Positions 1,822 to 16,319 of a stretch of 29,553 bases of DNA are shown here, piece by piece; the stretch's first letter is position 1, and every line of letters begins with the position of its first letter. Origin of the DNA: a virus; the IMG/VR virus record IMGVR_UViG_3300003873_000083, positions 1 through 29,553 of that record; one strand, 5' to 3'. Made by a program: the position numbers and the translations under genes. Below the pieces are notes generated by a model. It was not told where the DNA came from. It made no database searches and saw only the letters and a list, made by a program, of their open reading frames with translations.

Positions 1822-1912
1822 AAACAACACTGTCACCTTTTAATGGTAACATTAAAATAAAAAAGTTTTTTAATTGCTGGAAACTCTTGTTAGGCAACTG
1901 GTAGGAAATTTA

Positions 1913-1920: not shown

Positions 1921-1991
1921 AACTAATAATCCAGTTGATAGAGACAATCAGCAGCGAATATATAAACAAACAAAAAAATGGAGTGAGACCC

Positions 1992-2882
1992 ATGAATATT
2001 TACATTATAACTAACATTATAAATTCAAAACAATATGTTGGTATAACAACAAGGACAATAACTGAGCGATTTAGAGGACATAAATATACTGCAGGTAAGA
2101 ACACAGGATATTATTTACACAATGCTATGAGAAAATATGGTTTTAATAATTTTGTTATAAAATTATTAGATACTACAGATAGTATAGATGAATTAAAAGA
2201 AAAAGAAATATTTTATATAAAAAAATATGATACATATAAACATGGATATAATCTAACAAAAGGTGGGGATTTTTCTTCTAACAAAGGGTACGTTATAGCT
2301 TTAGATAAAAACAATAATATTTTGCGAATTCCTATAACAGAGTTTGTAGAACGCAGTGATTTAGTTTCTATAAATAAAAATAAAATTACTGTCTTTAAAA
2401 ACGATGAACGTATACGTGTTACAACAGACGAATATAGAAATAAATATTTTAATGAAGGTTGGCGAAGTAAAAATTATGGTTTTACAGTAGTTAAGGATAA
2501 AAATGGAAATTGTGTACGAATAAAATCAAGTGATTTTGATAAAAATATCCATAAAGGAGTGTCATATGGTACTCAGATATATTTTAATCCCTTAACACAA
2601 ACATTTGAATCATTGAAACCACACGAAGTTGATAAATTTATTTATTTCAATAAATTAAAATTAAAATACATAGTATATGATAGTAATGATGAGATTATAA
2701 ATATTTCTATGTCAAAAGCAATTGATCCTGAGTTTGGTGGGAACCAGTTTAGATATTTGATAAATAGAAATAAAGATTTTAACACATTAGTGTTAACAGA
2801 GAAGGTATTTTTAAAATTAAAACCAAAAAATAGAAATTATGATTTTTTAGGATATAAATTAGAAAAATTAAAATATAAATAA
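1992..2882 (+). CDS. Intron-encoded GIY-YIG homing endonuclease
   Basis: A 296-aa protein inside intron 1 that probably cuts intronless sheath alleles to start intron homing. The N-terminal GIY-YIG nuclease domain spans about residues 2-93: Y4 in NIYIITN, YVG at 15-17, the catalytic-type arginine in ERFRGH (R26/R28), the metal-binding glutamate in ELKEKEIFYI (E70/E72), and GYNLTKGGD at 85-93. The remaining 200 residues are Lys/Asn-rich, consistent with a DNA-binding region, but no named module is clear. I chose the ATG at 1992, preceded by GGAGTGAG; an in-frame TTG at 1935 would add 19 residues overlapping the Q element and is less likely. A late promoter box lies 71 nt upstream. The family is clear; the target site is inferred from intron location. 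Confidence 0.9.
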   Translation: MNIYIITNIINSKQYVGITTRTITERFRGHKYTAGKNTGYYLHNAMRKYGFNNFVIKLLDTTDSIDELKEKEIFYIKKYDTYKHGYNLTKGGDFSSNKGYVIALDKNNNILRIPITEFVERSDLVSINKNKITVFKNDERIRVTTDEYRNKYFNEGWRSKNYGFTVVKDKNGNCVRIKSSDFDKNIHKGVSYGTQIYFNPLTQTFESLKPHEVDKFIYFNKLKLKYIVYDSNDEIINISMSKAIDPEFGGNQFRYLINRNKDFNTLVLTEKVFLKLKPKNRNYDFLGYKLEKLKYK

Positions 2883-3103
2883 CATATGACCGAGATGTCT
2901 TAAAACTATTTTGTTTATATAACGTTCAACGACCAGGGTATTACACCCGTACACTCAAGTGAGTGGAAATGGAAACCAACCTAACTAGTCTCACACCTTT
3001 TTTAAGGATAGCGGTTGAAGATATGGTCTGATCTATATGGAGACATATAGTTGCAGGTAAAGCTGCAGATTTAGAAGTAACGAATCTAAATTGAACACAA
3101 ATG

Positions 3104-3161
3104 ATGTGATGAAACAAATAACACCCCAGATGTAATATCTAGGAATGAGTTAATTGTGGAT
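3104..3161 (+). CDS. 18: Tail sheath protein, exon 2 (58 nt)
   Basis: Tiny middle exon encoding the last base of codon 583 and residues 584-602, CDETNNTPDVISRNELIVD, which is the most conserved signature of T4-type sheath C-termini. It is flanked on both sides by group I introns. In-frame translation continues directly into a stop (TAA at 3162-3164, the first bases of intron 2), so splicing is needed to reach exon 3. Its last six bases (TGGAT with preceding G) form the P1 helix of intron 2. Confidence 0.93.
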
Positions 3162-3441
3162 TAAATGAAGGTTCACATAAAAGTTTTCTAATTGCTGGAA
3201 CATCTTACCATTAAGTTGAAGACAATCAGCAGCTAAGATTAAAAACAATTGTTTTTAATAAAGTTCAACGACTATCGAAAAGGGTATTTACCACTTAGTA
3301 GAGTACACTATAAGCTAATGATAGTGGAAACGGAAACTATTCTGTATAAGCAGAATAAAGATATAGTCTAATCTATGTGGAAACATATAGCAGAGTTAAA
3401 AGCTCGGTATAAATTGTTGCGAATTTATGCGAATATGAATG
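3162..3441 (+). ncRNA. Group I intron 2 in tail sheath gene (ORF-less, 280 nt)
   Basis: Second group I intron, closely related to intron 1 but without an ORF. P (AATTGCTGGAACA, 3190-3202), Q (ACAATCAGCAGC, 3222-3233), R (GTTCAACGACTA, 3263-3274) and S (AAGATATAGTCTA, 3358-3370) are all present. P7 pairs GACTA with TAGTC, a compensatory change relative to GACCA/TGGTC in intron 1. P9 is CTATGTG-GAAA-CATATAG with a GNRA loop. P1 pairs exon TGTGGAT with guide GTTCACA, with U3161.G at the cut site, and exon 3 TTTCAT can pair with ATGAAG at the 5' end as P10. The intron ends with G3441. Confidence 0.93.
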
Positions 3442-3534
3442 ATTTTCATAAAACCTACATATGTAGCGGAATTTATAAAATTACGATTCACAAATGCAGG
3501 CACAAACAGTTTTGCAACTATAACAGGTGCTTAG
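3442..3534 (+). CDS. 18: Tail sheath protein, exon 3 (C-terminus)
   Basis: Encodes the last 30 residues of the sheath, beginning IFIKPTYVAEFIKLRF and ending at TAG 3532-3534. The pattern D-I-F-I-K-P across the exon 2/3 junction matches the conserved IYIKPA...INFI segment of T4-type sheaths. A different frame through this segment (3375-3584) is open only by chance. Confidence 0.92.
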   Translation: MFIKPTYVAEFIKLRFTNAGTNSFATITGA

Positions 3535-3540
3535 CTAAAA

Positions 3541-3570
3541 TAAAGACCAATCTTTGCGGGTTGGTCTTTA
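3541..3570 (+). terminator. Hairpin terminator after tail sheath gene
   Basis: Perfect 10-bp inverted repeat (TAAAGACCAA / TTGGTCTTTA) with a 10-nt loop, seven bases after the sheath stop codon. The descending arm ends in TTTA but no longer U-tract follows, so termination may be partial. The rest of the gap up to 3642 holds nothing I can recognise. Confidence 0.55.
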
Positions 3571-3642
3571 TACTGTACATATAAGATCCAATACCAAAAC
3601 AGATGAATTTAAAATTAATGTTATCAGAAAGATTATCATAAA

Positions 3643-5370
3643 ATGACAATAGAAAAGATTCTACCAATACTTATAAACTCTAAAAAAAGACTAGAAGGTC
3701 AAAGACTAAAAGAAAAATGGTTTTTAAAAAGAGGCTACACAGAAGAATATAATTTTTTAAAAAATAAGAATATAACAGATACTAAATCATTGTATATGTA
3801 TATAACAGGTGAAACCGATAGATGTGAGTGTGGATCTCTACGACGATTTATATCATATAAAGATGGTTTTAAGCAACATTGTGAAAAATGTGCTAGAACT
3901 AAATTTAATCATATGAAAAAATTGTCAGAATTCAACTTTGCTAAAAAAGATTTGAAATTTGAACTAAGAAAATTTTTGAAAAATGATATAAAAAAACTAA
4001 AAACAGGTGAAAAATATAGTTCAACTAAAATAGTCATGAACCCCAAAATTATCCAAAAAGTTATAGAAAGCACACATTATCTTGATAAAGATGTTAAAAT
4101 AAACGAGAGATTGTATCATATTGAGCATGATATAAAAGAAGTACAAGTTTGTATAAATTGCGGAATACCTTTAGATAATTTTATTAGCACACAAGTTGGG
4201 TATTATTCAGATTATTGTAAAAAAAATAAGTGTGCTATAAAATTTAAAGATACTAGTACTATATCTAAAGGTATAAAACATTCAAAATACCCAATGCTGG
4301 TAAGTAAGTTTAAAAATGCAATATCTAAATTATCACACGATGATGAATACCAGTACAACTTATTTACAGAAGAAGAATATTTAAATGATAGTGCTAAAAT
4401 AAAAATTAAGCATAAATGTGGATATGAATATGATATAGATATAGGGTACCAAGGACATTTTAAATGTCCTAAATGTTTCCCGATAAGATCTAAAAAACAA
4501 TACGAAATATATGAATTTTTAAGAGAATATACTGATATAAAATTTAACGATCGAAAGCTAATTCGACCTTTAGAGCTTGATATATTAACAGATAAGTTTG
4601 CTATTGAATATGATAGTTTAACATTTCACAGTACGGGTAATAGCGCATTACAATATTTAAATTTTAAAGCAGAAAAACCTAATAAACATGTTTATAAAAC
4701 AGAGTTATGTGAAAATAAAAGTGTGCAATTGTTTAGAATTTTTAGTAATGAATGGTTTCAAAAACAAGATATATGGAAGAGCATTATACTTCATAGACTA
4801 GGAATATCAAGTAAAATATTTGCAAGAAAATGTGAAATTAATGAAATAGATACTAAAACATCTAAAGAATTTTTACAGAATAATCATCTTCAAGGTTCTA
4901 TAAATGCTTCTGTCAGAATAGGTTTGTTCTATAAAAATAATTTAGTTCAAGTTATGACTTTCTGTAAATCTAGATTTAATAAAAAATATCAATATGAACT
5001 ACTAAGAATGTGCTCTAAATTGGATTATACTGTAATAGGAGGTGCATCCAAACTACTTAAATATTTTGAACGAAATTATAAACCAGATTCTATAATCAGT
5101 TATGCTAATAGAAGATGGTCTCAAGGTAATGTATATAAAATACTGGGTTTTGAGTTTATACACAATTCAAAACCTAACTATTTTTACTTTAAAGGTGATG
5201 ATTGTTCAAGTTTATTCTCTAGAAACCAATTCCAAAAACACCTACTAAAAAATAAATTAACAATATTTAAACCTGAACTAACAGAGACTGAGAATATGTA
5301 TTTAAACGGATACAGAAAAATATATGATTGTGGAGATAAAGTATATGTTAAGGAATATATAAATACCTAA
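3643..5370 (+). CDS. Hef-like free-standing homing endonuclease (Vsr/EDxHD nuclease fold)
   Basis: A 575-aa protein of the free-standing phage homing endonuclease type resembling Hef of T4-related phages. Visible parts: Cys-rich knuckles at about 60-83 (CECG...CEKC), 170 (CINC) and 261-278 (CGYEY...CPKC); a Vsr-like/PD-(D/E)XK nuclease core with PLELDIL at about 309 and AIEYDSLTFHS at 321-331 (E-Y-D...H, as in EDxHD homing enzymes), followed by KTELCENK...RIFSNEW; then a C-terminal domain from about 394 (ARKCEINEI) containing GGASKLLKYFE and ISYANRRW. The same C-terminal domain recurs in the 960-aa protein downstream. It sits between sheath and portal genes without its own recognisable late promoter, and its ATG has only a weak upstream AGAAAG. 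Its 3' end carries the late promoter for portal. The nuclease family is well supported; cleavage target is unknown. Confidence 0.85.
   Translation: MTIEKILPILINSKKRLEGQRLKEKWFLKRGYTEEYNFLKNKNITDTKSLYMYITGETDRCECGSLRRFISYKDGFKQHCEKCARTKFNHMKKLSEFNFAKKDLKFELRKFLKNDIKKLKTGEKYSSTKIVMNPKIIQKVIESTHYLDKDVKINERLYHIEHDIKEVQVCINCGIPLDNFISTQVGYYSDYCKKNKCAIKFKDTSTISKGIKHSKYPMLVSKFKNAISKLSHDDEYQYNLFTEEEYLNDSAKIKIKHKCGYEYDIDIGYQGHFKCPKCFPIRSKKQYEIYEFLREYTDIKFNDRKLIRPLELDILTDKFAIEYDSLTFHSTGNSALQYLNFKAEKPNKHVYKTELCENKSVQLFRIFSNEWFQKQDIWKSIILHRLGISSKIFARKCEINEIDTKTSKEFLQNNHLQGSINASVRIGLFYKNNLVQVMTFCKSRFNKKYQYELLRMCSKLDYTVIGGASKLLKYFERNYKPDSIISYANRRWSQGNVYKILGFEFIHNSKPNYFYFKGDDCSSLFSRNQFQKHLLKNKLTIFKPELTETENMYLNGYRKIYDCGDKVYVKEYINT
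5358..5365 (+). promoter_or_regulatory. T4-type late promoter for portal gene
   Basis: Exact TATAAATA 17 nt before the portal ATG, embedded in the last codons of the Hef-like gene. The following CCTAAAAAGG supplies stop codon and ribosome binding site. Confidence 0.75.
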
Positions 5371-5382
5371 AAAGGCTATATA

Positions 5383-6861
5383 ATGAATTTAATAGAAGCT
5401 CTAAAATCTTTTTTATCAAAAAAAGAAGTACAATCAACAGAGCAAGAAAAACATGTAATTGATGATTATTCGGTAGATGATACTATTGGTACAGGAGCAT
5501 TTTTCGACGGTACTAAATCTGGTTCTATACTATCATTTACGGGTAAGGATAAATCTTTCTTAGAAAAACAAAAAGCTAAAATAATGACTTACAGAAACCT
5601 TACACATCAAGAAGAGGTGCAAGATGCCTTAGATGAAATTGTAAACGAAATTGTATATACTAATGAGAAAGAAATAATAAAAATTAGTATAAATGAAACT
5701 AATGAAAAAATAGTACAAGCTATAGAAGATGCATTCAAGAAGATAACAAGATTACTAAATGTTAAGAAGAATTTATATGGTCTTGTAAGACAAACTTATA
5801 TAGATGGTCAGATAAACTTATTTACTCAATACAATGATAACCAGAAAGAAGGTCTTTCTAAAATTGGCTTGCTAGATCCTATATATTTTTACTACGATCC
5901 AAAAGAAGACTTGTACAAATACAAAGAGCAAAATGATTATAGTGGTATTAGTACAAATGACGAAGTAGTAACATATCAAAAAGAAGAGATAGTAAGAAAT
6001 ACTTTTGGATTAAGATCGGGTCCTGTTATATTAAGTTACTTAGAAAATGCTATAAAACCAATCAACCAGTTAAGAGCCCTAGAAGATTTATTAATACCGA
6101 TGAGATTTAGCAGAAGTATTAGCAGAAGGGTATTTAACGTAGATACAGGTGAACTAAGCTATTCTAAATCAGAAGAAGTAATGGGTGAGATGGCTAAGAA
6201 ATTTAAGTACAAAAAATTCTATAACACCGAAACAGGTGAAATTACGAATCAACAACATATCACAAGCATGGTAGAAGATTATTGGTTTGCTAATAGAGCA
6301 GGTGGTAAAGGTACACAAGTTGATCTACTAGACGAAACAGGTAATTTAGGTGAACTCGGAGATATTATGTATTTCAAAAAGAAATCATATACAGCTTTAA
6401 AAGTACCATTAGACAGAATAGCAGATAATCAAGATGCTCAAGAATTTGATTATGATGCTACGCAAACTAATCACGATGAGTTAAAATTTTTCTACTTTAT
6501 AAGTAGAGTACGGGGTGTATATGTAGAAGTATTTAATGAGCTGCTACGAAGAGAATTAATAAGCACAGAAGTACTAACTAATGAAAATTACGAAGAGTAC
6601 AAAGAAAAAATAGAAATAAATTTTGTATCAGAAAGTATTTTCGTAGAAAAAATGAAATTAAATTTATTTAGCTCTAAGTTAGAAATATATGCGACTCTTG
6701 CTGAATATGCAGGAAAGTTATTTCCAGTAGCTAAGATACTTAAAGACGTATTTGGTTTTAACGATGAGGAAATTAAAGAGAATTTTGATGAAATAGAAAA
6801 GGAATCTAAAAATAAAATGTTCGCTAGTTTCTATCAAAAAGAAGATGATAGTAGTTATTAA
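5383..6861 (+). CDS. 20: Portal protein (gp20-like)
   Basis: Portal vertex subunit of the head, forming the dodecameric ring through which DNA is packaged and to which the neck attaches. The protein has 492 aa (T4 gp20 has 524). Typical gp20 features are the early helix segment TYRNLTHQEEVQDALDEIV (about 69-87) and the later PLDRIADNQDAQEFDYD (about 343-359), where T4-type portals have a related signature. A late promoter lies 17 nt upstream and AAAAGG serves as ribosome binding site. Next comes a small gene behind its own late promoter. In T4 the sheath and portal genes are separated only by gene 19; here gene 19 has moved downstream and a Hef gene takes that position. Confidence 0.95.
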   Translation: MNLIEALKSFLSKKEVQSTEQEKHVIDDYSVDDTIGTGAFFDGTKSGSILSFTGKDKSFLEKQKAKIMTYRNLTHQEEVQDALDEIVNEIVYTNEKEIIKISINETNEKIVQAIEDAFKKITRLLNVKKNLYGLVRQTYIDGQINLFTQYNDNQKEGLSKIGLLDPIYFYYDPKEDLYKYKEQNDYSGISTNDEVVTYQKEEIVRNTFGLRSGPVILSYLENAIKPINQLRALEDLLIPMRFSRSISRRVFNVDTGELSYSKSEEVMGEMAKKFKYKKFYNTETGEITNQQHITSMVEDYWFANRAGGKGTQVDLLDETGNLGELGDIMYFKKKSYTALKVPLDRIADNQDAQEFDYDATQTNHDELKFFYFISRVRGVYVEVFNELLRRELISTEVLTNENYEEYKEKIEINFVSESIFVEKMKLNLFSSKLEIYATLAEYAGKLFPVAKILKDVFGFNDEEIKENFDEIEKESKNKMFASFYQKEDDSSY

Positions 6862-6865
6862 AAAA

Positions 6866-6873
6866 TATAAATA
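6866..6873 (+). promoter_or_regulatory. T4-type late promoter
   Basis: Exact TATAAATA 19 nt before the ATG at 6893, followed by AAAAAAGGAG as ribosome binding site. Confidence 0.75.
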
Positions 6874-6892
6874 AATAAAAAAGGAGTACAAT

Positions 6893-7114
6893 ATGTACAT
6901 AGCTAAAAAATATTTCGAAACAAGATTTAATAGAGTTTTTAAAAAAGATGAGATAGTACCTGATGAAATTGCTAAATATTACTTGAGAGATGTAGAGTTA
7001 AAAGAAGGTGAGTTGTTAGTTGAAGATCCGTCTGAAGTACAAGTATCTAAAGAAATATCTAAAGAAGATAAAGATATCAAAAAATCTAAAAAAACAAAGA
7101 AGATTAAAAAATAA
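6893..7114 (+). CDS. Small hypothetical protein between portal and neck genes
   Basis: A 73-aa protein I do not recognise. It begins MYIAKKYFETRFNRVF, has an acidic middle (EGELLVEDPSE) and ends in a Lys-rich tail (KKSKKTKKIKK). It has a strong ribosome binding site (AAGGAG) and late promoter, and its TAA overlaps the ATG of the next gene by one base (TAATG), so it is very probably translated and coupled. In T4 the place after portal is taken by small head-core genes 67 and 68, but no sequence match is evident. Confidence 0.8.
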   Translation: MYIAKKYFETRFNRVFKKDEIVPDEIAKYYLRDVELKEGELLVEDPSEVQVSKEISKEDKDIKKSKKTKKIKK

Positions 7115-7821
7115 TGATAAAAAACAATGATGATTTAGTTGACTACATAAAGCGCAAACTTGGATACCCATCAGTTCGTGTAGAGGTTACAGATGACCAA
7201 CTTCAAGATTGTATTGACTATAGCATTAAAGAGTTTAGTTCATTCGCTCTAGATGGTGAATTACAAGAAGTGGTAATATTAACGGTAGATGGTACCGGTA
7301 ACTATGATTTACCACCATTTATAACTAGCATCAAAGCTGTTAGAAGTATAAGTAACTTTAGTAATTATGGTTCCAATTATGTACCTGATAGGTGGAGTGA
7401 GTTATATAATAACATGTTTAGTAACTCTGCTATTGGTATTACAGCTATAGTAACAATATCTAGCGAGTTATCTATTTTTCAGAAATATATGACCAGAGAG
7501 ATAAATTATAGCTTCAACGAGTATAAAGCTAAGCTTAGATTGTTTGAGAAATATTCTGGTAACTTACTAGTGCATTACACATACGAATACACTCCTGATA
7601 GAGTAGATAAAATATTTAACCAGCAGTGGGTAAAAGATATGGCTGTAGCTCAAGCACGAATGATACAAAGTACAGTAACTGGTAAGTACAACGCACCTTT
7701 AGTTGGTGGTAGTACTGTAAATTATGATAATATGAGATCATTGGCAGAGTCTGAAATAGAGAGTCTTAGAGATCAGTTATTTTCAAAATATGGTGGTCCT
7801 GCACCTATATTAATAGCCTAG
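7114..7821 (+). CDS. Neck/head-completion protein (gp13-like)
   Basis: A 235-aa virion protein. The N-terminus (DDLVDYIKRKLGYPSVRVEVTD, with DDQLQDCIDYSI following) matches the recurrent N-terminal pattern of neck proteins of T4-like phages, in which a short helix and the D-D-Q-L-x-D motif precede a two-helix segment. The C-terminal part (FNQQWVKDMAVAQARMI, then LVGGSTVNYDNMRSLAESEIESLRDQL) also resembles these proteins, with a W-x-K-x-x-A helix, a glycine-rich loop and a final acidic helix. Such proteins close the filled head beneath the portal. It is coupled to the preceding gene by TAATG. The gp13 assignment is from remembered family patterns and could be wrong; a structural neck role is likely. 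Confidence 0.58.
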   Translation: MIKNNDDLVDYIKRKLGYPSVRVEVTDDQLQDCIDYSIKEFSSFALDGELQEVVILTVDGTGNYDLPPFITSIKAVRSISNFSNYGSNYVPDRWSELYNNMFSNSAIGITAIVTISSELSIFQKYMTREINYSFNEYKAKLRLFEKYSGNLLVHYTYEYTPDRVDKIFNQQWVKDMAVAQARMIQSTVTGKYNAPLVGGSTVNYDNMRSLAESEIESLRDQLFSKYGGPAPILIA

Positions 7822-7830
7822 GAGAAAAAA

Positions 7831-8283
7831 ATGAAAAAATTAGAAGATTTAAAAAATTTACTTGAAAGTCCTGTTGGAGTTATAGGTAGAACATCGGTTC
7901 AAGATGCTATACTTCACATAACACCTGAATTGGAAAGAAAATTTAATCAAATAGTAAAGGAATTGGGTGGTAAAGTAGTAGCACGGATATTACTAGATAA
8001 AATTAGCGCATTTAATGCTATTGATAAACTAGAAGGTAAAGATTCAGATCTTAAAAAATATCAAACTAAAAATCAGATAGATGCTAAGAAAAATCTTAAA
8101 GAATCTATACAAAACCCCGAAGATGTCTTAATCAAACATAACATAAAAATTAAACAAAAATTTAGTACTAAATTTGGAATACAATTTGATCTAGCAAAAA
8201 AATATACAGAATCGGAAATAAAAAAAGCTTTAGTTGATTTTAAGTATAAGTTAGATGGTAATTCAATATTTGTATATCTTTAA
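7831..8283 (+). CDS. Hypothetical protein in neck/tail cluster
   Basis: A 150-aa, Lys-rich protein not recognised. It starts with an amphipathic helix (MKKLEDLKNLLESPVG) and contains HITPELERKFNQIVKELGG; the second half is Lys/Asn-rich. No membrane segment or signal peptide is seen. The ribosome binding site GGAG overlaps the stop region of the neck gene, so it is transcribed with it, while the next gene has its own late promoter. Context suggests a virion or assembly component. Confidence 0.75.
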   Translation: MKKLEDLKNLLESPVGVIGRTSVQDAILHITPELERKFNQIVKELGGKVVARILLDKISAFNAIDKLEGKDSDLKKYQTKNQIDAKKNLKESIQNPEDVLIKHNIKIKQKFSTKFGIQFDLAKKYTESEIKKALVDFKYKLDGNSIFVYL

Positions 8284-8284
8284 A

Positions 8285-8292
8285 TATAAATA
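8285..8292 (+). promoter_or_regulatory. T4-type late promoter for tail tube gene
   Basis: Exact TATAAATA 18 nt before the tail tube ATG, immediately after the previous stop codon; AAGGAG follows as ribosome binding site. Confidence 0.75.
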
Positions 8293-8310
8293 GTACAATA
8301 AGGAGAAATA

Positions 8311-8889
8311 ATGAGTAATATAGCAGCATTAAAACAAGCAGTCGGTGCAGGTGGGCGTGTAAATAAATATAAATTAAAATTTAATATGCCAGGTTCTGTA
8401 TCACCAATATCAAATATTTCAGAAGCAGATGTACTTTGTAAAAGTACACAGTTTCCAGGTGTGACAATTACACCAATCGAAGTATATAATCAAGGTAGAA
8501 AACTTTTAATACCAGGTGATACTACATATGAGAATACGTGGACTGTAATTTTTTATAACACAGAAGACCATGCTCTAAGAAGAGACATGATTAATTGGAT
8601 GAAAGCGGCAGATAACTTTCAAGAAAATAAACATAGTGGTAATCCAGCAGATGTTCTTACAGAAATAGGTGTATCACAATTAGATTCAAGCGCTAAAGAA
8701 ACAGCTACATATACCTTTCATAATGTATTTGTATCAGGAGTTGATGCAGTTGAAGTTTCCGATGACCCTGATGGTAATATTCAGGAGTTTTCAGTAACTT
8801 TTACATTTAGTGACTGGGTAGTTGGTACAGAAGCTACTAATCAACCAGATTCAGCAAAAGCTGCTACTAAAAATAGTACAGCTTTATAA
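8311..8889 (+). CDS. 19: Tail tube protein (gp19-like)
   Basis: Subunit of the rigid inner tail tube around which the sheath contracts. It has 192 aa (T4 gp19 has 163). The fold-typical pattern is visible: NKYKLKFNMPGS near the N-terminus, FPGVTITPIEVYNQGRKLLIPGD (read in parts, about residues 48-70), then a WTVIFYNTEDHALRRDMINWM segment matching the tube family's W-T-V...N-D-E-x-x-x-R...W pattern, and a C-terminal IQEFSVTFTFSDW like the end of T4 gp19. It has its own late promoter and strong AAGGAG site. Its position downstream of portal differs from T4, where gene 19 directly follows 18. Confidence 0.9.
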   Translation: MSNIAALKQAVGAGGRVNKYKLKFNMPGSVSPISNISEADVLCKSTQFPGVTITPIEVYNQGRKLLIPGDTTYENTWTVIFYNTEDHALRRDMINWMKAADNFQENKHSGNPADVLTEIGVSQLDSSAKETATYTFHNVFVSGVDAVEVSDDPDGNIQEFSVTFTFSDWVVGTEATNQPDSAKAATKNSTAL

Positions 8890-8902
8890 AAACTTAAAAA
8901 CG

Positions 8903-8925
8903 GATAGCTTGATTTTCAAGCTATC
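8903..8925 (+). terminator. Hairpin after tail tube gene
   Basis: Perfect 10-bp stem GATAGCTTGA / TCAAGCTATC with a three-base loop, 13 nt past the tail tube stop codon and 15 nt before the next ATG. No U-tract follows, so it may act as a 3' stabilising structure or partial terminator rather than a full one. Confidence 0.5.
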
Positions 8926-8940
8926 TGAGAAAGTAGATAC

Positions 8941-9501
8941 ATGAGTGTACTTAAAAAAGTAGTTCAAAAAGTAAAAAATCTTGGTATTAAAGATCTCACC
9001 CCTAAAGAATCCATAGCAATGTTTAAAAATCTTATGAAAACGAATAAAACAAGTATTCAAGATAAATTAAAACCCGGTACTTTACTTACATTTGTTTATA
9101 ATGCGAAGTATGATAAGGAAAATTTTGATCGAACCCCTTTTGTGATGGTTCTTAGTACTACATCTAAGTACATGCTCGGATGTAACTTTCATTGGGCTCC
9201 ACTTTTTAAACGTGAAATAATTGTACAGTACATCTTAGAAAAAAATAAAAATAGAATACGTAAAAAATTAAAAATTAAAATGACATATAAAGAGCTTAGA
9301 GCGCTTTTAAAAACTGTGGGTATGTTTCCTGTTGTAAGATTATACATAAGAAAGAGGATGAGCTCTAAAGGTGTTATAGTACCTGATGATATGTTAATGA
9401 GTGCTGTTAAGATGAAGACAGAAACATTTACTAAAGGTAAAGTTAACAGTACAACATTGTGGCAAAGAGCTAAAAACAAAATAAATAAATTTAGGCGATA
9501 A
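8941..9501 (+). CDS. Conserved T4-superfamily virion-associated protein, function unknown
   Basis: A 186-aa very basic protein (many Lys and Arg; calculated by eye as strongly positive), ending NKINKFRR. The segment PGTLLTFVYNAKYDKENFDRTPF followed by MLGCNFHW resembles a conserved small protein of T4-like marine phages with the pattern F-x-Y-x-x-K...YD-x-x-P...G-x-N-x-H. That resemblance is from memory and the function of those proteins is not clear to me. It may bind DNA or nucleocapsid given its charge. It lacks an obvious strong ribosome binding site (AGAAAG) and starts just after a hairpin. Confidence 0.75.
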   Translation: MSVLKKVVQKVKNLGIKDLTPKESIAMFKNLMKTNKTSIQDKLKPGTLLTFVYNAKYDKENFDRTPFVMVLSTTSKYMLGCNFHWAPLFKREIIVQYILEKNKNRIRKKLKIKMTYKELRALLKTVGMFPVVRLYIRKRMSSKGVIVPDDMLMSAVKMKTETFTKGKVNSTTLWQRAKNKINKFRR

Positions 9502-9507
9502 CTTAAA

Positions 9508-9515
9508 TATAAATA
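9508..9515 (+). promoter_or_regulatory. T4-type late promoter
   Basis: Exact TATAAATA 26 nt before the ATG at 9542, right after the stop of the preceding gene; GAAAGGAA follows as ribosome binding site. Confidence 0.72.
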
Positions 9516-9541
9516 ACTACATATTATATGAAAGGAATATA

Positions 9542-9787
9542 ATGGATAAAATAGAACCAGAGGTATTAAAACATGCAACTGATAAAAAATTTACAGAATT
9601 TTCAGCTGCGGTTAAACAGTCGCTAAAAAATAAATTAGCTAACCATAAAGATATAAGAAAATATGTTTCTGATTACGATAAAATTAATCAGATGAAAAAT
9701 ATGTTTAATAAGATAACAACAATTAATGACCCTAAGGACTTAGATAAGGATAAAGACTTAGATAAAGATAAAGACTTAGATAAGTAA
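9542..9787 (+). CDS. Small prohead-core-type protein with DKDLDK repeat tail
   Basis: An 81-aa protein directly upstream of the prohead protease. The helical N-terminal part (FSAAVKQSLKNKLANH) resembles the short helical motif of small internal head proteins (gp67/gp68 type) that precede gene 21 in T4, but the match is weak. The C-terminus is an acidic/basic tail DPKDLDKDKDLDKDKDLDK produced by an in-frame 18-nt tandem repeat. It has its own late promoter. Function is inferred from position only. Confidence 0.65.
   Translation: MDKIEPEVLKHATDKKFTEFSAAVKQSLKNKLANHKDIRKYVSDYDKINQMKNMFNKITTINDPKDLDKDKDLDKDKDLDK
9737..9786 (+). repeat. 18-nt in-frame tandem repeat
   Basis: Units GACTTAGATAAGGATAAA (9737-9754) and GACTTAGATAAAGATAAA (9755-9772), then a partial third copy ending in the stop codon. 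Each full unit adds DLDKDK to the small core-type protein. Confidence 0.9.
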
Positions 9788-9806
9788 GTTGTTAAAGGAG
9801 ATGTAG

Positions 9807-9998
9807 ATGAAATTATTATATGACACTAATATTGATAAAGTCGTAGTTGAACAAGAGCTTAATGAATCAAGTGGTACTAAAAAGTACGTGATAAAGGGTA
9901 TTTTTTCAAGTCCTGGTGTTAAAAATAAAAACGGTAGAGTATATCCAAAATCTCTATGGGAAAAAGAAGTAAACAGGATCCTCAAATTCATTACTTGA
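9807..9998 (+). CDS. 21: Prohead protease (gp21-like), N-terminal segment, frame ends early
   Basis: N-terminal part of the prohead maturation protease, which digests the scaffold and trims the capsid proteins. The segment KKYVIKGIFSSPGVKNKNGRVYP aligned by eye (in parts) with T4 gp21 YIEGIFMQAEVVNRNKRLYP, and SLWEKEV corresponds to ILEKAV. After residue ~56 the frame reads RILKFIT and stops at TGA 9996-9998, while the gp21 sequence continues in the +1 frame. Relative to T4, about seven residues between EKEV and the catalytic-His motif are missing, suggesting a deletion of a length not divisible by three near 9973-9981 rather than a simple one-base change. The start has a strong AAAGGAG site at 9794-9800. 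Confidence 0.85.
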   Translation: MKLLYDTNIDKVVVEQELNESSGTKKYVIKGIFSSPGVKNKNGRVYPKSLWEKEVNRILKFIT

Positions 9999-10443
9999 GC
10001 TCGATCACCCACCAAGACAGAATGTTGATATGATGGAAGCAGTTGCTAAAATGAGAAAACTTTACATTGATGGTGATTATGTAATGGGTGAAGCTGTGCT
10101 ACTTGATAATCCGAAAGCTAATCAGCTAAAAACATTAATAGATAATGGTATAAAGATGTCAGTATCTAGTAGAGGAGTTGGTAACATAGGATCAAATAAT
10201 ATGGTTGAAAAATTTAATCTTATTACATTTGATATAATACCAAACCAAAATCAATCTGATTTAAATGCTAGTATGTACGGGATAACAGAGGGTATACTAC
10301 AAGACAAAGAATATGATTATGATGATAATGGTAATATAGTTGAGGTATGTACAAAAAAAGGTTGTAGCTTATATGAGAAAGAAGATATTCAAAAAGCTAT
10401 TAAAGAGCGTTTTGAAAATATTTTAGAAAAATTTAAAGTCTAA
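9973..10443 (+). CDS. 21: Prohead protease (gp21-like), catalytic segment in the +1 frame
   Basis: Open frame from 9973 (after TAA 9970-9972) to the stop at 10441-10443. It carries both catalytic motifs: NSLLELDHPPR with His codon at 10006-10008, matching T4 GELNHPPR, and MSVSSRGVG at about 10156-10182, matching the T4 serine motif VSSRGLG. No start codon with a ribosome binding site is seen; the first ATGs (10030, 10033) lie after the histidine, so independent translation would give a protein lacking it. The product is therefore only functional if joined to the 9807 segment by frameshifting, or if the break is an error in the sequence. The C-terminus ends in a helical KAIKERFENILEKFKV. Confidence 0.85.
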   Translation, partial: TGSSNSLLELDHPPRQNVDMMEAVAKMRKLYIDGDYVMGEAVLLDNPKANQLKTLIDNGIKMSVSSRGVGNIGSNNMVEKFNLITFDIIPNQNQSDLNASMYGITEGILQDKEYDYDDNGNIVEVCTKKGCSLYEKEDIQKAIKERFENILEKFKV

Positions 10444-10478
10444 ATTTTAAGATTTTATTAAAAAATAATTTTCAAAAA

Positions 10479-10486
10479 TATAAATA
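10479..10486 (+). promoter_or_regulatory. T4-type late promoter upstream of scaffold gene
   Basis: Exact TATAAATA in the 132-nt gap between protease and scaffold genes, 89 nt before the scaffold ATG. This is the longest leader in the window. The leader contains a small inverted repeat GATTC-CTAGA-GAATC and ends in AAAAAAAGGAG. Confidence 0.65.
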
Positions 10487-10575
10487 AGTATATGTAATTG
10501 TTTTACATTACGTTTGAATGGTCTATTAAGATCTAAGATTCCTAGAGAATCATAAACTAAAAAAAGGAGAAATAT

Positions 10576-11373
10576 ATGTTAGATAAAATGTTCGAATCAC
10601 TAGATGAAAAAGTATTTACACCAGAACTTAAATCTGACCTTACTGAAAAATTCGAAGCTGCTGTAAAAGCTAAAGCAGAAGAAATTGCTAAAGAAGGTTT
10701 AGATGAAAAGATCGAAGTAAAAGCTGCTGAAATAGCTAGTGAAAAAATTGAAGAAAAAATTCAAGAACTTGAAACTCTATCTGAAGAAGTAAAAACTAAA
10801 TTAGAAGAGCACAAAGAAAAACTCGAAGAAGAATATAAAGAAAAAGAATCAGAACTAACCGATCAAGTAGATACATACTTAGAGAAAGTTGTTGATGATT
10901 TTGTTGCTGAATCTAAAGAATCTTTAGAAGAATCTCTAAAAGATGAAAAAGCTGATATGATTATTGAGGCAATGGACGCAATGATTACAAGTACAGGGGT
11001 TAAAATATCACAAATTACTGAAGCTAAAGATAGTCTAGATGCTGAGTCTAAACTTAAAGAGCTTACAGAAAAATATGATACTCTTGTAGAAGAAAATATC
11101 AAATTAGAGAAGCAAAAAGTCGAACTAGTTAAAAAAGGAGTCATTGAAGAAATTTCAGAAGGACTAGATGTAATAGATACTGAAAAATTTAACAAAATGG
11201 CTGATATGATTAATTTTGATAGTTTTGATAGTTTTGTAGAAAAACTTCAATTAGTCAGGGAGAGTATCGGTAGTTCTAAACAGAAAGACGTAAAGAAAGA
11301 CGTAAAGAAAGACGTATTAGAAGAAAAACACGACAAAGAGTCTGTAGTAACTTCTTTTAATCATCTTATATAA
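10576..11373 (+). CDS. 22: Prohead scaffold/core protein (gp22-like)
   Basis: Main internal scaffold around which the prohead shell assembles and which the gp21 protease later destroys. It has 265 aa (T4 gp22 has about 270) and is extremely rich in Glu and Lys with long predicted coiled coils (about residues 15-105 and 150-185). The central segment SLKDEKADMIIEAMDAMI and the C-terminal half with VELVKKGVIEEISEGLDVIDTEKF are typical of gp22. Position between gp21 and gp23 is the T4 order. Near the C-terminus a 12-nt repeat encodes DVKKDVKKDV. It has a strong GGAG site and a late promoter 89 nt upstream. Confidence 0.9.
   Translation: MLDKMFESLDEKVFTPELKSDLTEKFEAAVKAKAEEIAKEGLDEKIEVKAAEIASEKIEEKIQELETLSEEVKTKLEEHKEKLEEEYKEKESELTDQVDTYLEKVVDDFVAESKESLEESLKDEKADMIIEAMDAMITSTGVKISQITEAKDSLDAESKLKELTEKYDTLVEENIKLEKQKVELVKKGVIEEISEGLDVIDTEKFNKMADMINFDSFDSFVEKLQLVRESIGSSKQKDVKKDVKKDVLEEKHDKESVVTSFNHLI
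11284..11316 (+). repeat. 12-nt in-frame tandem repeat in scaffold gene
   Basis: AAAGACGTAAAG at 11284-11295 and 11296-11307 plus a partial third copy AAAGACGTA at 11308-11316, encoding the DVKK repeats of the scaffold C-terminus. Confidence 0.85.
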
Positions 11374-11393: not shown

Positions 11394-12719
11394 ATGGAAA
11401 TGAATGAAAAAATTAAAGCTTTAGTAGAAAGCGAAAAATACCCAATATTAGAAAATGATGCCGAAGCTTCTTATATGGCAATGATGCTAGGAAATGCCGA
11501 AGCAGAAGCTGAAAAAGTACTTGCAGAGGGAACAGTTGCTAGTGATATAGCTCAATTTACACCAATTATAATGCCTCTAATTAGAAGAATATATCCAAAT
11601 CTTATAGCTAATCAATTATTAGGGGTTCAACCAATGGCTTTACCTACAGGTTTTATTTATGCTTTAACTAGAAGATATACTGGTAGTTCAAATGCGAGTA
11701 TTTCACCAGTTGAAAAAGGTCAAATTCTTGTATTTAGTGCTAAAACTCCAAAAGTTGGTGATACTGTAACAGGTGTTGATGCTAAAGGTGTTGCTGCGAC
11801 TGCTGTAGTTGTTTATGTTGAAGATAATAAAGCGCTTGTTAAGGATAATGGTAACTTTTTAGTAGTTGGTGGTGATATATCTGCTGTATATACTAATGAG
11901 TCTTCTTTTTATCATATACTTAAAAAATACACAGGACCTATGCCTACAGCTACTGCTGAGCAACTTGGTGATGATATGAAAGAAGTTGGTTTTGATATTG
12001 CTAGAAAAAGTGTTGAAGCTAAATCAAGAGCACTAAAAGGTAAATATTCAGTTGAAATGTACCAAGATTTAAAATCTCAGCACGGTCTAGCTGCTGATGA
12101 CGAACTAATGAGCCTTATAGGTTATGAAGTTCAAGCAGAACTAGATAGAGAAATCGTAGAATTTGTTAATTCTAATGCTACTCAAGTTGCTAATGCTACT
12201 GCAATAACTGCTAAAGATGGTAGATGGGAAATTGAAAAATATAGAACTGAAGTTATAAAAATTAAAAGAGAAGCTATACAAGTTGGTTTAGATACTAAAA
12301 GAGGCCAGGGTAATGTTCTAGCGGTTTCTGCTAGTACAGCTACTATGTTAGAGGAAGTTGGTTCTTTCAAAATAGCAACTCAAGCTGAAAATGTTAAGGT
12401 ACCTGTTGCTGGTGGTGTTGCTGGTACTTTTGATAATAAATTTAAAGTAGTTGTTGATCAATATGCAACTTCTGATTATGCTACAGTAATTTTCAAAGGA
12501 GCTGATAGAAGAGATAGTATGGGATTCTTCGCTCCATATGTACCACTTAGTTTTACAAAAGTAACTAAGTATGAAACAGGTCAACCAGCTATTATAGCTA
12601 AGACAAGGTATGCTCTTGAAACTATACCTGGTATTGAAACTCCAATCAGTAATGATAGAGCTCAAAAATATGCTAGAAGTTTTGGTATTGATTTCACAGG
12701 AACAAGTTTAGCACAGTGA
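11394..12719 (+). CDS. 23: Major capsid protein (gp23-like)
   Basis: Hexon subunit of the T4-type capsid (441 aa; T4 gp23 has 521). Diagnostic segment: PLIRRIYPNLIANQLLGVQPM (residues 61-81, quoted in overlapping parts), matching T4 MVRRAIPNLIAFDICGVQPM. A likely prohead-protease site L-A-E/G lies at residues 43-46 (KVLAE|GT), which fits the gp21 cleavage rule (I/L-x-E) and would remove the acidic 45-residue propeptide. C-terminal markers are ADRRDSMGFFAPYVPL and TKVTKYETGQPAIIAKTRYAL, typical of gp23. The start is preceded by AAGGAG, and a strong hairpin follows the stop codon. The relatively short insertion region (residues ~105-150) is smaller than in T4. Confidence 0.97.
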   Translation: MEMNEKIKALVESEKYPILENDAEASYMAMMLGNAEAEAEKVLAEGTVASDIAQFTPIIMPLIRRIYPNLIANQLLGVQPMALPTGFIYALTRRYTGSSNASISPVEKGQILVFSAKTPKVGDTVTGVDAKGVAATAVVVYVEDNKALVKDNGNFLVVGGDISAVYTNESSFYHILKKYTGPMPTATAEQLGDDMKEVGFDIARKSVEAKSRALKGKYSVEMYQDLKSQHGLAADDELMSLIGYEVQAELDREIVEFVNSNATQVANATAITAKDGRWEIEKYRTEVIKIKREAIQVGLDTKRGQGNVLAVSASTATMLEEVGSFKIATQAENVKVPVAGGVAGTFDNKFKVVVDQYATSDYATVIFKGADRRDSMGFFAPYVPLSFTKVTKYETGQPAIIAKTRYALETIPGIETPISNDRAQKYARSFGIDFTGTSLAQ

Positions 12720-12744: not shown

Positions 12745-12772
12745 TTAAGGACTATCTTTTGATAGTCCTTAA
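12745..12772 (+). terminator. Strong hairpin after major capsid gene
   Basis: Perfect 12-bp stem TTAAGGACTATC / GATAGTCCTTAA with a TTTT tetraloop, 25 nt past the gp23 stop codon. It is followed by an A/T-rich tract (AAAATATTAAG) without a run of T. It most probably ends or protects the capsid transcript. Confidence 0.7.
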
Positions 12773-12803: not shown

Positions 12804-12902
12804 ATATAAGAGATATTAAGTAACATACAGAACTCTTCTCGGTTCTTCTGTATGTTACTTAATGTGAACCGAGAATTCACCTCTTATATCCAAAAGGATA
12901 TA
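12804..12902 (+). ncRNA. Candidate structured cis-regulatory RNA: three-way junction with complementary loops
   Basis: P1 pairs 12804-12812 (ATATAAGAG) with 12881-12889 (CTCTTATAT). P2 pairs 12816-12832 with 12846-12862, 17 perfect bp. P3 pairs 12864-12868 (GTGAA) with 12876-12880 (TTCAC). Loop 2 contains TTCTCGG (12836-12842) and loop 3 is CCGAGAA (12869-12875), a perfect 7-nt complement, so the loops can kiss. Junction strands are very short (3, 1 and 0 nt). The 3' arm of P1 overlaps a competing hairpin TATATCC-AAAA-GGATATA (12885-12902) that buries the ribosome binding site of the ORF at 12905. Forming P1 would free that site. The pairing is seen directly; regulation and any ligand are inference. 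I know no named RNA family with this sequence. Confidence 0.6.
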
Positions 12903-12904
12903 AA

Positions 12905-13063
12905 ATGAAACAAAACAAATACCCCAAAGAACTCAAAGAGTTCTGTAAAACTCTAATTCGAAAAGACGGTAACATAAACGTTGCAATCTTAAAAACCCTA
13001 GAATTCAAAAATTCAAAAGAATTAGAAAAACTCATAATTCGAAAAGACGGTAACATAAAGTGA
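12905..13063 (+). CDS. 52-aa ORF with internal repeat, coupled to the double endonuclease gene
   Basis: ATG preceded by AAGGAT in the hairpin described above. The product begins MKQNKYPKELKEFCKTL and contains LIRKDGNI and LIIRKDGNI as two repeats, encoded by a 25-nt direct repeat (12954-12978 and 13035-13059). Its TGA overlaps the GTG start of the 960-aa endonuclease (GTGA), a classic layout for translational coupling. It may be a leader peptide or a displaced N-terminal module of the endonuclease. I do not recognise a domain. Confidence 0.6.
   Translation: MKQNKYPKELKEFCKTLIRKDGNINVAILKTLEFKNSKELEKLIIRKDGNIK
12954..13059 (+). repeat. 25-nt direct repeat pair
   Basis: Identical 25-nt copies at 12954-12978 and 13035-13059, beginning TAATTCGAAAAGACGG, in the same reading frame, 56 nt apart. 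The second copy ends directly at the GTG start of the 960-aa gene. Confidence 0.9.
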
Positions 13064-15942
13064 CAAACCGCCAAAAAATTCTAAACTTCTTCAATAATCA
13101 AAATAAATTTGAATCATCTTTTAAAAAAAATTTACCAGAGCTGTACAAATACTTTTCTAGGAGAATGAACCAAATACCAAAATTTAGCGATAGAGTTAAG
13201 ATGTATATGGATAATGATATGTATAAGTTGTACAGATTATCCAAGACATCTAAGAAAAAATTCACTGATTACTTATATCGAATCAAGATACCAATAAGAG
13301 AAGATATCTTAAAAAAATTAAACTTTGAACCCGAACATGGTTTAACGAGATTTGAAACAGTGTATAAAATAAAAAATGGTTATATCCCTAGATGTATAGT
13401 GTGTAGCGAGAAATTAAAATTTCAGCTTTACGAAGATAACAAATCTAAAAAATTCTGCAGTAAAAAGTGTCAAAATCTTTATAACAAAAATAATTTGCAG
13501 ATACTTCTTGAAAAAAATAACTCTTTTTTGATATCTTATAGTTCTAAAAAAAGTACTATAAAATGTAACAAGTGTGGTGTTGAATTTTCACGAGATACTA
13601 GTAACATATCAAGTAAGAAAATGTTTATATGTAACACATGTCTAGGAGCTTACTCTCATGGTCAATTAGAAATAAATGAATTTCTTAACAGCTTAAACAT
13701 AAAAACAGAATTAGAAGTACGTAAGATTATAAAAGGAGTAATTGATATATATTGTCCTGATATAAAACTAGCAGTTGAGTATGACGGTCTTATGTATCAC
13801 AGTTTTGGTAAATCTAAGCATACTGTTTTTAACAATTTCGACAAGATAGACCCTTACATACATTTAAAGAGAAAAATCGATCTAGAAGAAAAAAATATAA
13901 AGTTGATCAGAATAACCGACTATGAATGGATACACTATAAAGATCAAATGAAGAATCTTCTAAATTCGGTGATTAATTCTTATAACGATATACAAGTAGA
14001 CCCCAAATGTGTTAATATAGGGCGAGGTGAAGAATATTTTTTAAAAAAACAAGGCTATAAAATAAAAGAAATAAAAAAACCTAGACCATTTATATTTAAA
14101 CATAACTATGAACATGATAAACAATTAAAGATTATTGAATACAAGGATATTGAGAATAAAGTTAATGATGGTTATAGAGTATATTTTGATTGCGGGTTAG
14201 CAGTAATGTATTATCAACCCCGTGTCGCACCAGAACCAAAACCTAGCTTAAAAGTCAATGTACCAAAACCTAGCTTAAAAGTCAATGTACCAAAACCTAT
14301 CTTAAAAGTCAATGTACCAAAACCTATCTTAAAAGTCAATGTACCAAAACCTATCTTAAAAAGACTCAAAAAATACCCTCAGAATTTCTTCAATTCTTTT
14401 AATAACAGGGTTAAACTAAAAAGATATTATCACAGACTAGTAGCTTGGTACATTCTGAATAAATTTGGAGAAGATACATATAAAGGCATGTACTTCTTTA
14501 TAAAGTACTTATCTAAGCACGTAGATATTAAAAGAGCTATAAATTCTACATTTCCTGAACTAAAACTAAAAATAGAAAAAGAATTCAAAATAAATATAGG
14601 CAATCAATTAAAACACGAATTAATAGATGGTTGCTATATTTGTCCTAATTGTGCTAAACGATTAAAACCAAATTATAAATTTTGTTCTTCTAGTTGTGCT
14701 AACAGTTTTAAGCTTAAAGATCCTGATTATGTGGTAAAAATATCAGAAAGTCTTAAAAATTACTACAATAATACGGACTGCTCAGAAAGGTACAAGAAAA
14801 TATCTAATACTTTGAATGATATGTACAGTAATATGACTCGTGATGAAATACGTAAAAAATGTACTAATAAAACTATAGAATATACTGCATATGATGATTT
14901 TTCTAAAAATTTTAAAGGTTTAAGATTAGATTGTACTAAAGAATTTTTTTACACTAATAAAAATATACCTATTATATGTAAGTGTGGTAATAAATTTACG
15001 AGTTTAAAGAGTACTGCATTCTATCCTTATTGTAAAATATGCAATCCTACTCAAAAACATAAAACTCAAAATATTATAACATCATTTATAAGAGGACATA
15101 TAGAGTCAAATATAGATATAGATAGACGATCAATCATATCACCATTGGAATTAGATATATATGTAAAATCTAAAAAGTTCGCAATAGAGTACGATGGTTT
15201 ATTGTACCATAGCTTTGGAAAATCTAAATATCCTAGATTTAACAATACAGATGAAAATTCTAGGATTCATCTTAAAAAAACTGAATTGTGCGAATCTAAA
15301 GGTATTCAGTTATTTCATATTTTCGAGAACGAATATACGAACCCTATTAAGAGGCGAATTTGGAACTCTATGATACTCTCAAAATTACAAAAGAGTACTA
15401 GAGTATATGCTAGAAAATGTACAGTAAAGGAAATTTCAAGTAAAGAAACTCGAGAATTTTTAGATAAAAACCATCTCCAAGGTTATACAAGCGCTAAGAT
15501 AAATATAGCATTATACTATAACGATGAAATTGTCCAGATTATGACATTTTCTAAACCAAGATTCAATAAAAATTATGAGTACGAACTTATAAGAATGTGT
15601 AATACATTAGAATGTACTGTAGTAGGTGGTGCTAGTAAATTACTAAAGTACTTCGAAAGAACTTACAAACCAAAAAGCTTGATAAGTTATGCTAATAGAA
15701 GATGGAGTACAGATAATGTATATAATGTTCTAGGATTTAAACTAGACCATATTTCAGATCCTAACTATTTTTACTTTAAAGTTAATGAAAATGTACTTTA
15801 TAGCCGGAACAAATTTCAAAAACATATGCTTAAAGATACTTATGATAGTAATTTGTCAGAATCTCAAAATATGTACAATAACAATTACAGAAAAATATTC
15901 GATTGTGGTAATCTAGTATTTACGAAGAACTACAAAATATAA
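13060..15942 (+). CDS. Fused double Hef/Vsr-like homing endonuclease
   Basis: A 960-aa protein with two nuclease units. Unit A: zinc-knuckles CIVC...CSKKC (about 112-138) and CNKC...CNTC (169-194), then a Vsr-like core with GVIDIY and AVEYDGLMYHS (about 227-248). Linker: four and a half copies of a 9-residue repeat KP(S/I)LKVNVP (393-435). Unit B: knuckles CPNC...CSSSC (about 527-548) and CKCG...CKIC (641-664), core PLELDIYV and AIEYDGLLYHS (about 694-717), KTELCESKG, and a C-terminal domain from about 785 (YARKCTVKEI, GGASKLLKYFE, ISYANRRW) closely similar to the Hef at 3643. Unit A lacks that C-terminal domain. The start is GTG at 13060, overlapping the previous TGA. The fusion is probably a tandem endonuclease merger. 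Nuclease assignment is well supported; activity of both sites is not known. Confidence 0.85.
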   Translation: MTNRQKILNFFNNQNKFESSFKKNLPELYKYFSRRMNQIPKFSDRVKMYMDNDMYKLYRLSKTSKKKFTDYLYRIKIPIREDILKKLNFEPEHGLTRFETVYKIKNGYIPRCIVCSEKLKFQLYEDNKSKKFCSKKCQNLYNKNNLQILLEKNNSFLISYSSKKSTIKCNKCGVEFSRDTSNISSKKMFICNTCLGAYSHGQLEINEFLNSLNIKTELEVRKIIKGVIDIYCPDIKLAVEYDGLMYHSFGKSKHTVFNNFDKIDPYIHLKRKIDLEEKNIKLIRITDYEWIHYKDQMKNLLNSVINSYNDIQVDPKCVNIGRGEEYFLKKQGYKIKEIKKPRPFIFKHNYEHDKQLKIIEYKDIENKVNDGYRVYFDCGLAVMYYQPRVAPEPKPSLKVNVPKPSLKVNVPKPILKVNVPKPILKVNVPKPILKRLKKYPQNFFNSFNNRVKLKRYYHRLVAWYILNKFGEDTYKGMYFFIKYLSKHVDIKRAINSTFPELKLKIEKEFKINIGNQLKHELIDGCYICPNCAKRLKPNYKFCSSSCANSFKLKDPDYVVKISESLKNYYNNTDCSERYKKISNTLNDMYSNMTRDEIRKKCTNKTIEYTAYDDFSKNFKGLRLDCTKEFFYTNKNIPIICKCGNKFTSLKSTAFYPYCKICNPTQKHKTQNIITSFIRGHIESNIDIDRRSIISPLELDIYVKSKKFAIEYDGLLYHSFGKSKYPRFNNTDENSRIHLKKTELCESKGIQLFHIFENEYTNPIKRRIWNSMILSKLQKSTRVYARKCTVKEISSKETREFLDKNHLQGYTSAKINIALYYNDEIVQIMTFSKPRFNKNYEYELIRMCNTLECTVVGGASKLLKYFERTYKPKSLISYANRRWSTDNVYNVLGFKLDHISDPNYFYFKVNENVLYSRNKFQKHMLKDTYDSNLSESQNMYNNNYRKIFDCGNLVFTKNYKI
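14236..14363 (+). repeat. 27-nt in-frame tandem repeat in the endonuclease linker
   Basis: Units of CCAAAACCTAGCTTAAAA plus GTCAATGTA at 14236, 14263, 14290 and 14317, with a partial fifth copy at 14344-14363. The first two units carry TAGC (Ser) and the later ones TATC (Ile), showing stepwise duplication. Encoded peptide unit: KP(S/I)LKVNVP. Confidence 0.95.
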
Positions 15943-15945
15943 ATA
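15938..15945 (+). promoter_or_regulatory. T4-type late promoter for gp25
   Basis: Exact TATAAATA 17 nt before the gp25 ATG, overlapping the end of the double endonuclease gene. It is followed by CCTAAAAAGG, as at 5358. Confidence 0.75.
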
Positions 15946-15962
15946 CCTAAAAAGGTTATGAT

Positions 15963-16319
15963 ATGGTAGTCTATAAAGATTATACAGCCCCTAATGCTAT
16001 TGTTACGAACGAACATGCTATAAATAACTCTATACGTAATATAATATTAACTAGAATAAACTCACTACCAGGTAAACCAGATTTTGGAAGTAATGTTATG
16101 TATACATTATTCGAATTAATGGATGGTTCAGGTACAGATGATTATGTAAAAACTTCAATTATTGAAGCTATATTAAAGTGGGAACCAAGAATATCATTAA
16201 TTGACATTATAGTAAAAGAAATACCCGAATATAACAAAATAGTTATAGATATTATATATGAATATAAAATGCAAAGTTCTGATGTACAAGCAAGTACATC
16301 TATAACAGTAAAAATATAA
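15963..16319 (+). CDS. 25: Baseplate wedge subunit (gp25-like)
   Basis: Small baseplate wedge protein that joins the wedge to the start of the sheath (118 aa; T4 gp25 has 132). Typical features of the gp25/lysozyme-like-fold family are visible: NEHAINNSIRNIILTR (helix with the N-x-x-A-I...I-x-N-L/I-L-x-T pattern), PGKPDFGSN (family: P-G-E-R-x-x-x-P-x-F-G-S), a helical ELMD...YVKTSIIEAILKWEPRI matching the I-x-x-x-E-P-R-I signature, then a final beta segment. It is followed closely by gp6, as expected for wedge genes. It is driven by the promoter inside the upstream endonuclease gene. Confidence 0.95.
   Translation: MVVYKDYTAPNAIVTNEHAINNSIRNIILTRINSLPGKPDFGSNVMYTLFELMDGSGTDDYVKTSIIEAILKWEPRISLIDIIVKEIPEYNKIVIDIIYEYKMQSSDVQASTSITVKI

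Follow-up and report, generated by a model that had tools for sequence, protein, structure and literature searches.

A conserved, apparently undescribed RNA in the leaders of phage homing endonuclease genes, most likely acting on translation

It is established that RNA structures hide the ribosome binding sites of T4 homing endonuclease genes and that late transcripts are freed from this block (PMC2988022; PMC3014915). The RNA element described here resembles the hairpins of I-TevI, I-TevII, I-TevIII, segB, and Aeh1 mobE, in which a late promoter lies upstream of an endonuclease leader and the Shine-Dalgarno (SD) sequence is held in a helix (PMC2988022; PMC3014915); of the 16 copies of the element, 11 have an exact late promoter upstream. 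Late transcripts of the I-TevI/mobE type escape because they are missing the 5' arm of the hairpin. Two other leaders also invite comparison. The T4 gene 32 leader contains a pseudoknot in a T4-type mRNA leader; this pseudoknot is bound by gp32 and autoregulates gene 32, so that it differs from the element in both the gene served and the layout (PMC3014915). In the seg43 leader of Aeromonas phage 25, a stable hairpin lies just before the endonuclease SD, as in the element; its stem of approximately 9 bp, its short loop, and its lack of the A strand and D-D' complement described below led us to reject it as a relative.

The element lies in a 29.6-kb IMG/VR virus contig from a T4-like phage (hereafter the window, meaning the whole stretch of DNA analyzed). 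The initial annotation had predicted an undescribed structured leader RNA preceding a selfish gene at this position, and the absence of an Rfam match and the presence of homologues before endonuclease genes bear this out. Compared to the I-TevI/mobE type, the element adds a long second hairpin and a complement between its loop and a downstream segment, its predicted late transcript includes all arms of the structure, and one leader serves Hef-like, GIY-YIG, and HNH endonucleases. Regulation of T4 endonucleases is known from single hairpins; the element is a compact RNA design with strong covariation that stands ahead of three unrelated classes. A literature search found no description of the element, although its partial coverage makes this weak evidence of absence. 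Both this architecture and its use by unrelated endonucleases appear to be new. We conclude that the element is a genuine leader RNA, conserved and apparently undescribed, that serves phage homing endonucleases and most likely acts at the level of translation; it is not a demonstrated riboswitch.

The gene order in the window is tail sheath, portal, protease, scaffold, the major capsid gene gp23 (11394-12719; Pfam Gp23, E=2.8e-93), the element, a 52-amino-acid ORF, a Hef-like homing endonuclease, and gp25 (15963-16319); apart from gp23, gp25, and the endonucleases, the genes are named from their order and from reading of the sequence. By gp23, the closest isolates are Vibrio phages (~69% DNA identity) and Campylobacter phages. 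A hairpin after gp23 (12745-12772) had been annotated as a terminator, but its terminator-like T-rich tail is on the minus strand only. The 52-amino-acid ORF (12905-13063, plus strand) overlaps the start of the next gene by 4 bases. It contains a 44-nt direct repeat (12935-12978 and 13016-13059) whose units share 80% identity and match exactly over their final 24 nt; its IRKDGN words resemble, in a weak match, the N-terminus of the endonuclease in contig L157. Its match to DUF4116 is weak and under the curated cut-off, and as a search query it returned no match. The 960-amino-acid endonuclease (13060-15942, plus strand; phrog_3339, E=1.7e-134; phrog_559, E=8.4e-111) consists of two Hef-like units, and their linker is a 27-nt tandem repeat (14235-14361, 4.7 copies) encoding PKPILKVNV. 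Both Hef-like genes of the window end inside or beside TATAAATACCTAAAAAGG (5358-5383 and 15938-15963), so that the end of each gene shares bases with a late-promoter word, after which comes the SD of the next gene. Elsewhere in the window, the tail-sheath region (1935-3390) carries a GIY-YIG endonuclease (1935-2882) and a group I intron matched by Rfam (3142-3390), with a second intron-like sequence near 1860-1930, and a prohead-protease-like frame (9807-10443) is split at approximately 9998-10030 by a frameshift or sequencing error.

All of the helices named in the initial annotation were located, on the plus strand, although several proved longer than had been proposed. Strand A (ATATAAGAG, 12804-12812) forms the 5' arm of P1 and is complementary at 9 of 9 positions to A' (CTCTTATAT, 12881-12889), which is at once the 3' arm of P1 and an anti-SD segment, able to pair with either A or the SD strand. 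P2 (12813-12832 with 12846-12865) is a long stem, as stated, but instead of 17 bp its core (12815-12832 with 12846-12863) has 18 of 18 exact pairs, extended to 20 bp by a U-G and an A-U pair. Its apical loop, L2 (12833-12845), carries a conserved CTCT(T) followed by D (TTCTCGGTTC, 12836-12845), and D' (GAACCGAGAA, 12866-12875) begins directly after the stem. The complement between TTCTCGG in L2 and CCGAGAA in L3 (12869-12875) had been recognized as exact; it covers 10 nt, the whole of D and D', rather than 7. An optional 5-bp P3 hairpin (12864-12880; GTGAA/TTCAC, 12864-12868 with 12876-12880) can form around L3. The SD-sequestering hairpin, TTATATCC-AAAA-GGATATAA (12884-12903; -7.8 kcal/mol), hides the ribosome site and, as claimed, shares bases with the 3' arm of P1; it has 8 bp (12884-12891 with 12896-12903) instead of 7. 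The minimum free energy (MFE) of the region is -33.3 kcal/mol (z -5.67), and none of 200 shuffled sequences was equally stable. Folding, proposed earlier as a check, supports a structured region, though in the MFE fold, which holds P2, the SD hairpin takes the place of P1; the P1-P2-P3 fold lies 1.5 kcal/mol above it, with the loop contact left out.

The element was found 16 times in related uncultivated T4-like phages, in addition to two degenerate copies. All copies come from uncultivated contigs: one each in the window, L013, L015, L016, L111, L157, L123, L279, L307, L424, and L415, two in L204, and three in L303. One search covered the region after gp23 in relatives and then all fetched loci for a long hairpin with a loop complement just downstream, a descriptor whose matches stand well apart from background. 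Further copies came from two protein-blind DNA-pattern scans and one whole-record pattern scan; each of the nine copies found by protein-blind patterns lies ahead of an endonuclease gene or a remnant of one. A covariance model derived from six other copies recovers the window (E=9.6e-8) and most remaining copies, and its matches in one 100-kb contig are the two degenerate copies, whereas L015 was caught by the descriptor and missed by the model. An exact 23-nt element sequence had no match in viral_contigs; homologues share structure and not sequence. The pattern ATATAAGAG..CTCTTATATCC gave nine matches, all without the structure, and a scan of GTDB genomes gave 72 pattern matches and zero elements. 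No element was found in the nearest isolates (Vibrio phiKT1024, pv27, Va1, and phiTY18, Campylobacter CP220 and NCTC12673, and others), where pattern matches were no more frequent than reversed-pattern controls. No Rfam family matches the element; at gathering scores, the only matches are group I introns, which lie in L123 and in another part of the window.

Comparison of the copies indicates a real folded RNA whose pairing has been preserved by compensating mutations at 16 or more loci in uncultivated T4-like phages. In P2, 17 of 18 model pairs are altered on both sides (15 copies), and 94.4% of P1 and P2 cells are paired in the covariance-model alignment, counts that are biased toward the proposed structure because the alignment was fitted to it. 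The covariation score is 0.610, compared to 0.190 +/- 0.022 for shuffled alignments and at most 0.13 with slid partners. An alignment-independent, block-wise test of P2 gave pairing of 0.71-1.0 for a copy's own arms and a mean of 0.44 for swapped arms; the MAFFT alignments A2 and A3, in which P2 is misplaced, were excluded from pair counts. The D/D' complement is rebuilt in each copy. Summed over the 16 copies, D complements its own D' over 145 nt, compared to a maximum of 114 nt among 50,000 permutations of partners, none of which reached 145, and to 58 +/- 4 nt for shuffled strands. Stems and loop complement are therefore kept in relatives, the property on which the initial annotation had staked its claim.

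Apart from AAGAG/CTCTT and two features of the loop, CTCT on its 5' side and a frequent CGG, the copies have no conserved unpaired core. AAGAG is present in the A strand of 16 of 16 copies, and P1 is intact over 7 bp in 14 of the 14 copies listed; it shows little covariation because it is nearly invariant, with a change from U-A to C-G in three copies only. P3, 5 bp in the window, has 5-6 bp in L015, L123, L204b, L279, and L307 and 2-3 bp in most others, and the junction has no conserved unpaired core across copies. The loop CTCT (12833-12837 in the window), which is unpaired in the main fold, is kept in 16 copies, as CTCTT in most and as CTCA in L015; it is similar to A' and complements AAGAG in strand A.

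The initial annotation had linked the element to Hef-like genes. Selfish genes do follow it, but they are not restricted to this type. Hef-like ORFs follow the copies in the window, L016, L111, and L157, and, judged by its N-terminus, in L013; GIY-YIG/NUMOD3-type ORFs follow in L204b (Pfam GIY-YIG) and in L204a, L123, and L307 (phrog_314); and HNH-type ORFs follow in L303a and L424 (phrog_655) and, by likeness, in L279 and L303c. The L303b product has no family match and reads as GIY-YIG-like, and the L015 ORF is truncated at the contig edge. No copy was found ahead of a gene other than an endonuclease or its remnant. A contig can hold up to three copies (L303), and a leader can outlive its endonuclease, as in L415, where the leader is intact and the endonuclease is a frameshifted remnant. 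In L303, genes for DNA polymerase and helicase (836-11307) are fractured, and split-intein-like halves and element-led endonucleases lie nearby. One tentative interpretation, to which we give somewhat less than an even chance, is that a portable RNA cassette consisting of a late promoter, a pseudoknot-capable leader, and strand-swapping SD control has been exchanged between unrelated endonuclease classes; the regulatory RNA, and not the enzyme, would then be the conserved part, and dose would be set in a new way, co-transcriptionally or through mRNA dimers. The element makes dose control of a selfish gene inside a lytic phage testable, provides an RNA-based instead of a protein-based marker for finding homing endonuclease genes, and gives a bistable leader for study that may need no ligand.

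Transcription from T4 late promoters starts approximately 13 nt past the first T of the promoter. In 11 of 16 copies, an exact TATAAATA lies 12-14 nt upstream of A (chance ~0.003 each), a spacing that predicts A as the 5' end of the late transcript. The exact box is absent from the window copy, three other copies behind gp23, and L111; for those behind gp23, read-through from gp23 is possible. Because transcription is predicted to begin at strand A, ahead of every arm, a late transcript would carry the entire structure, and its relief must differ from that of the T4 hairpins.

P1 and the SD hairpin had been described as mutually exclusive, and both pairings of A' (CUCUUAU..) are available in 16 of 16 copies. 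The helix between A' and the SD strand, which covers the SD as in T4-type endonuclease control, has 7-11 bp in every copy (sum 142, compared to 78 +/- 4 shuffled), and in L303, L279, L307, L123, and L424 the SD strand, AUAGGAG, is nearly identical to A, AUAAGAG. Without any loop contact, only 0.2-5.3 kcal/mol separates the two states, and energy models prefer the OFF hairpin in nearly all copies. The competition of A and the SD strand for one segment makes a translational on/off leader the best reading, and we propose with moderate confidence that the element acts in cis, as the 5' leader RNA of free-standing homing endonuclease genes in T4-like phages, to switch their translation on and off. 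In the ON state, A' would pair with the 5'-terminal A, so that P1 encloses the P2 hairpin and the SD stays open; in the OFF state, A' would pair with the SD strand. The long P2 hairpin would place A beside A', and loop D would pair with D' directly after P2. A short D-D' contact would dock beside intact P1-P2, whereas a full contact would force the basal pairs of P2 apart and free A, favoring the OFF hairpin. Translation would be the controlled step, with the balance most likely set by folding during transcription and by an intact late 5' end, so that no ligand would be needed.

The geometry of the loop contact was assessed with a rough, rigid A-form helix model. In most copies, a D-D' contact of 5-8 bp (5 in the window) is compatible with intact P1 and P2, and full contact requires 3-5 basal P2 pairs to be opened. 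P3 together with the loop contact is incompatible with P1 in the four copies tested, and in the window P3 with a 7-bp contact is forbidden when P1 and P2 are intact. These results favor a loop-to-downstream pseudoknot or an alternative fold over the kissing of two closed hairpins, and the L2-L3 geometry drawn in the initial annotation is doubtful on this model. The same considerations bear on an unlikely alternative in which pairing joins the D and D' of two separate mRNAs, P2 keeps D and D' apart in cis, and dimers formed at high mRNA levels stop translation, a form of trans-acting self-limitation. By the rough model, the outer D-D' pairs beside P2 are impossible in cis with P2 intact, yet the complement covers them in most copies; moreover, both L204 copies have private D/D' pairs, and a leader common to three endonuclease classes makes protein-based control unlikely. 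However, P2 is held at 17-20 bp in the 16-copy type, exceeding the needs of a simple spacer, and the contact of 5-8 bp is feasible in cis.

Returning to the cis-acting switch, it accounts for complements that would be left over if the element were an mRNA stabilizer. A 5'-terminal P1-P2 could guard the late transcript from 5'-end-dependent decay, with the SD hairpin incidental, as might be suggested by the long, perfect P2 and by transcripts predicted to begin with the first bases of P1 wherever TATAAATA is present (11 copies); since both the D/D' complement and the A'-SD complement of 16 of 16 copies would be unaccounted for, we regard this as quite improbable. The label "riboswitch", in the sense of ligand binding, is not supported. 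In the add adenine riboswitch, the 3' strand of P1 competes with an SD helix and there is a loop contact; the element shares this competition and a proposed loop contact. A metabolite or ion riboswitch of purine-class type, with P1 as the switching helix, would fit the P1-closed junction, the competition of its 3' strand with an expression platform, and the near balance of the states. The initial annotation was correct in noting this topology and the absence of the purine-binding core, but P2 is 17-20 bp instead of a short arm matched to P3, and P3 is weak or absent in approximately half of the copies; the likeness is one of topology only. Neither the junction core of the purine class nor a conserved P3 was found, given the lack of a conserved unpaired core and a variable P3 of 2-6 bp. 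No riboswitch of any class is among the Rfam matches up to E=5, the purine riboswitch is also absent from those at gathering scores in homologues, and we consider a riboswitch very unlikely. A DNA-level site for recombination, replication, or endonuclease targeting, with the RNA fold a by-product of inverted repeats, would suit mobile genes and a minus strand that also folds well, but it is scarcely credible: the position is fixed between late promoter and start codon, and P2 has 13 G-T and no A-C appositions, which, although the copies are related and these are not 13 independent events, identifies the plus-strand RNA as the selected molecule. A group I intron fragment, a ribozyme, and a terminator were rejected on the absence of an Rfam match, a conserved catalytic core, and a plus-strand U tract.

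A second, looser leader type was found in L009, L169, L045, L061, L063, and probably L084 and L116. It consists of a long hairpin before an endonuclease or endonuclease-like gene, with a loop that complements the SD or a nearby site, and the covariance model does not match it. These leaders may be relatives of the element or convergent. The loop complements the SD itself in L009, L169, and L045, which suggests that D-D' is an OFF contact there. In L084 (4120-5450), a tandem duplication has placed two leaders in a row and fused the C-terminus of gp23 to an endonuclease-like ORF.
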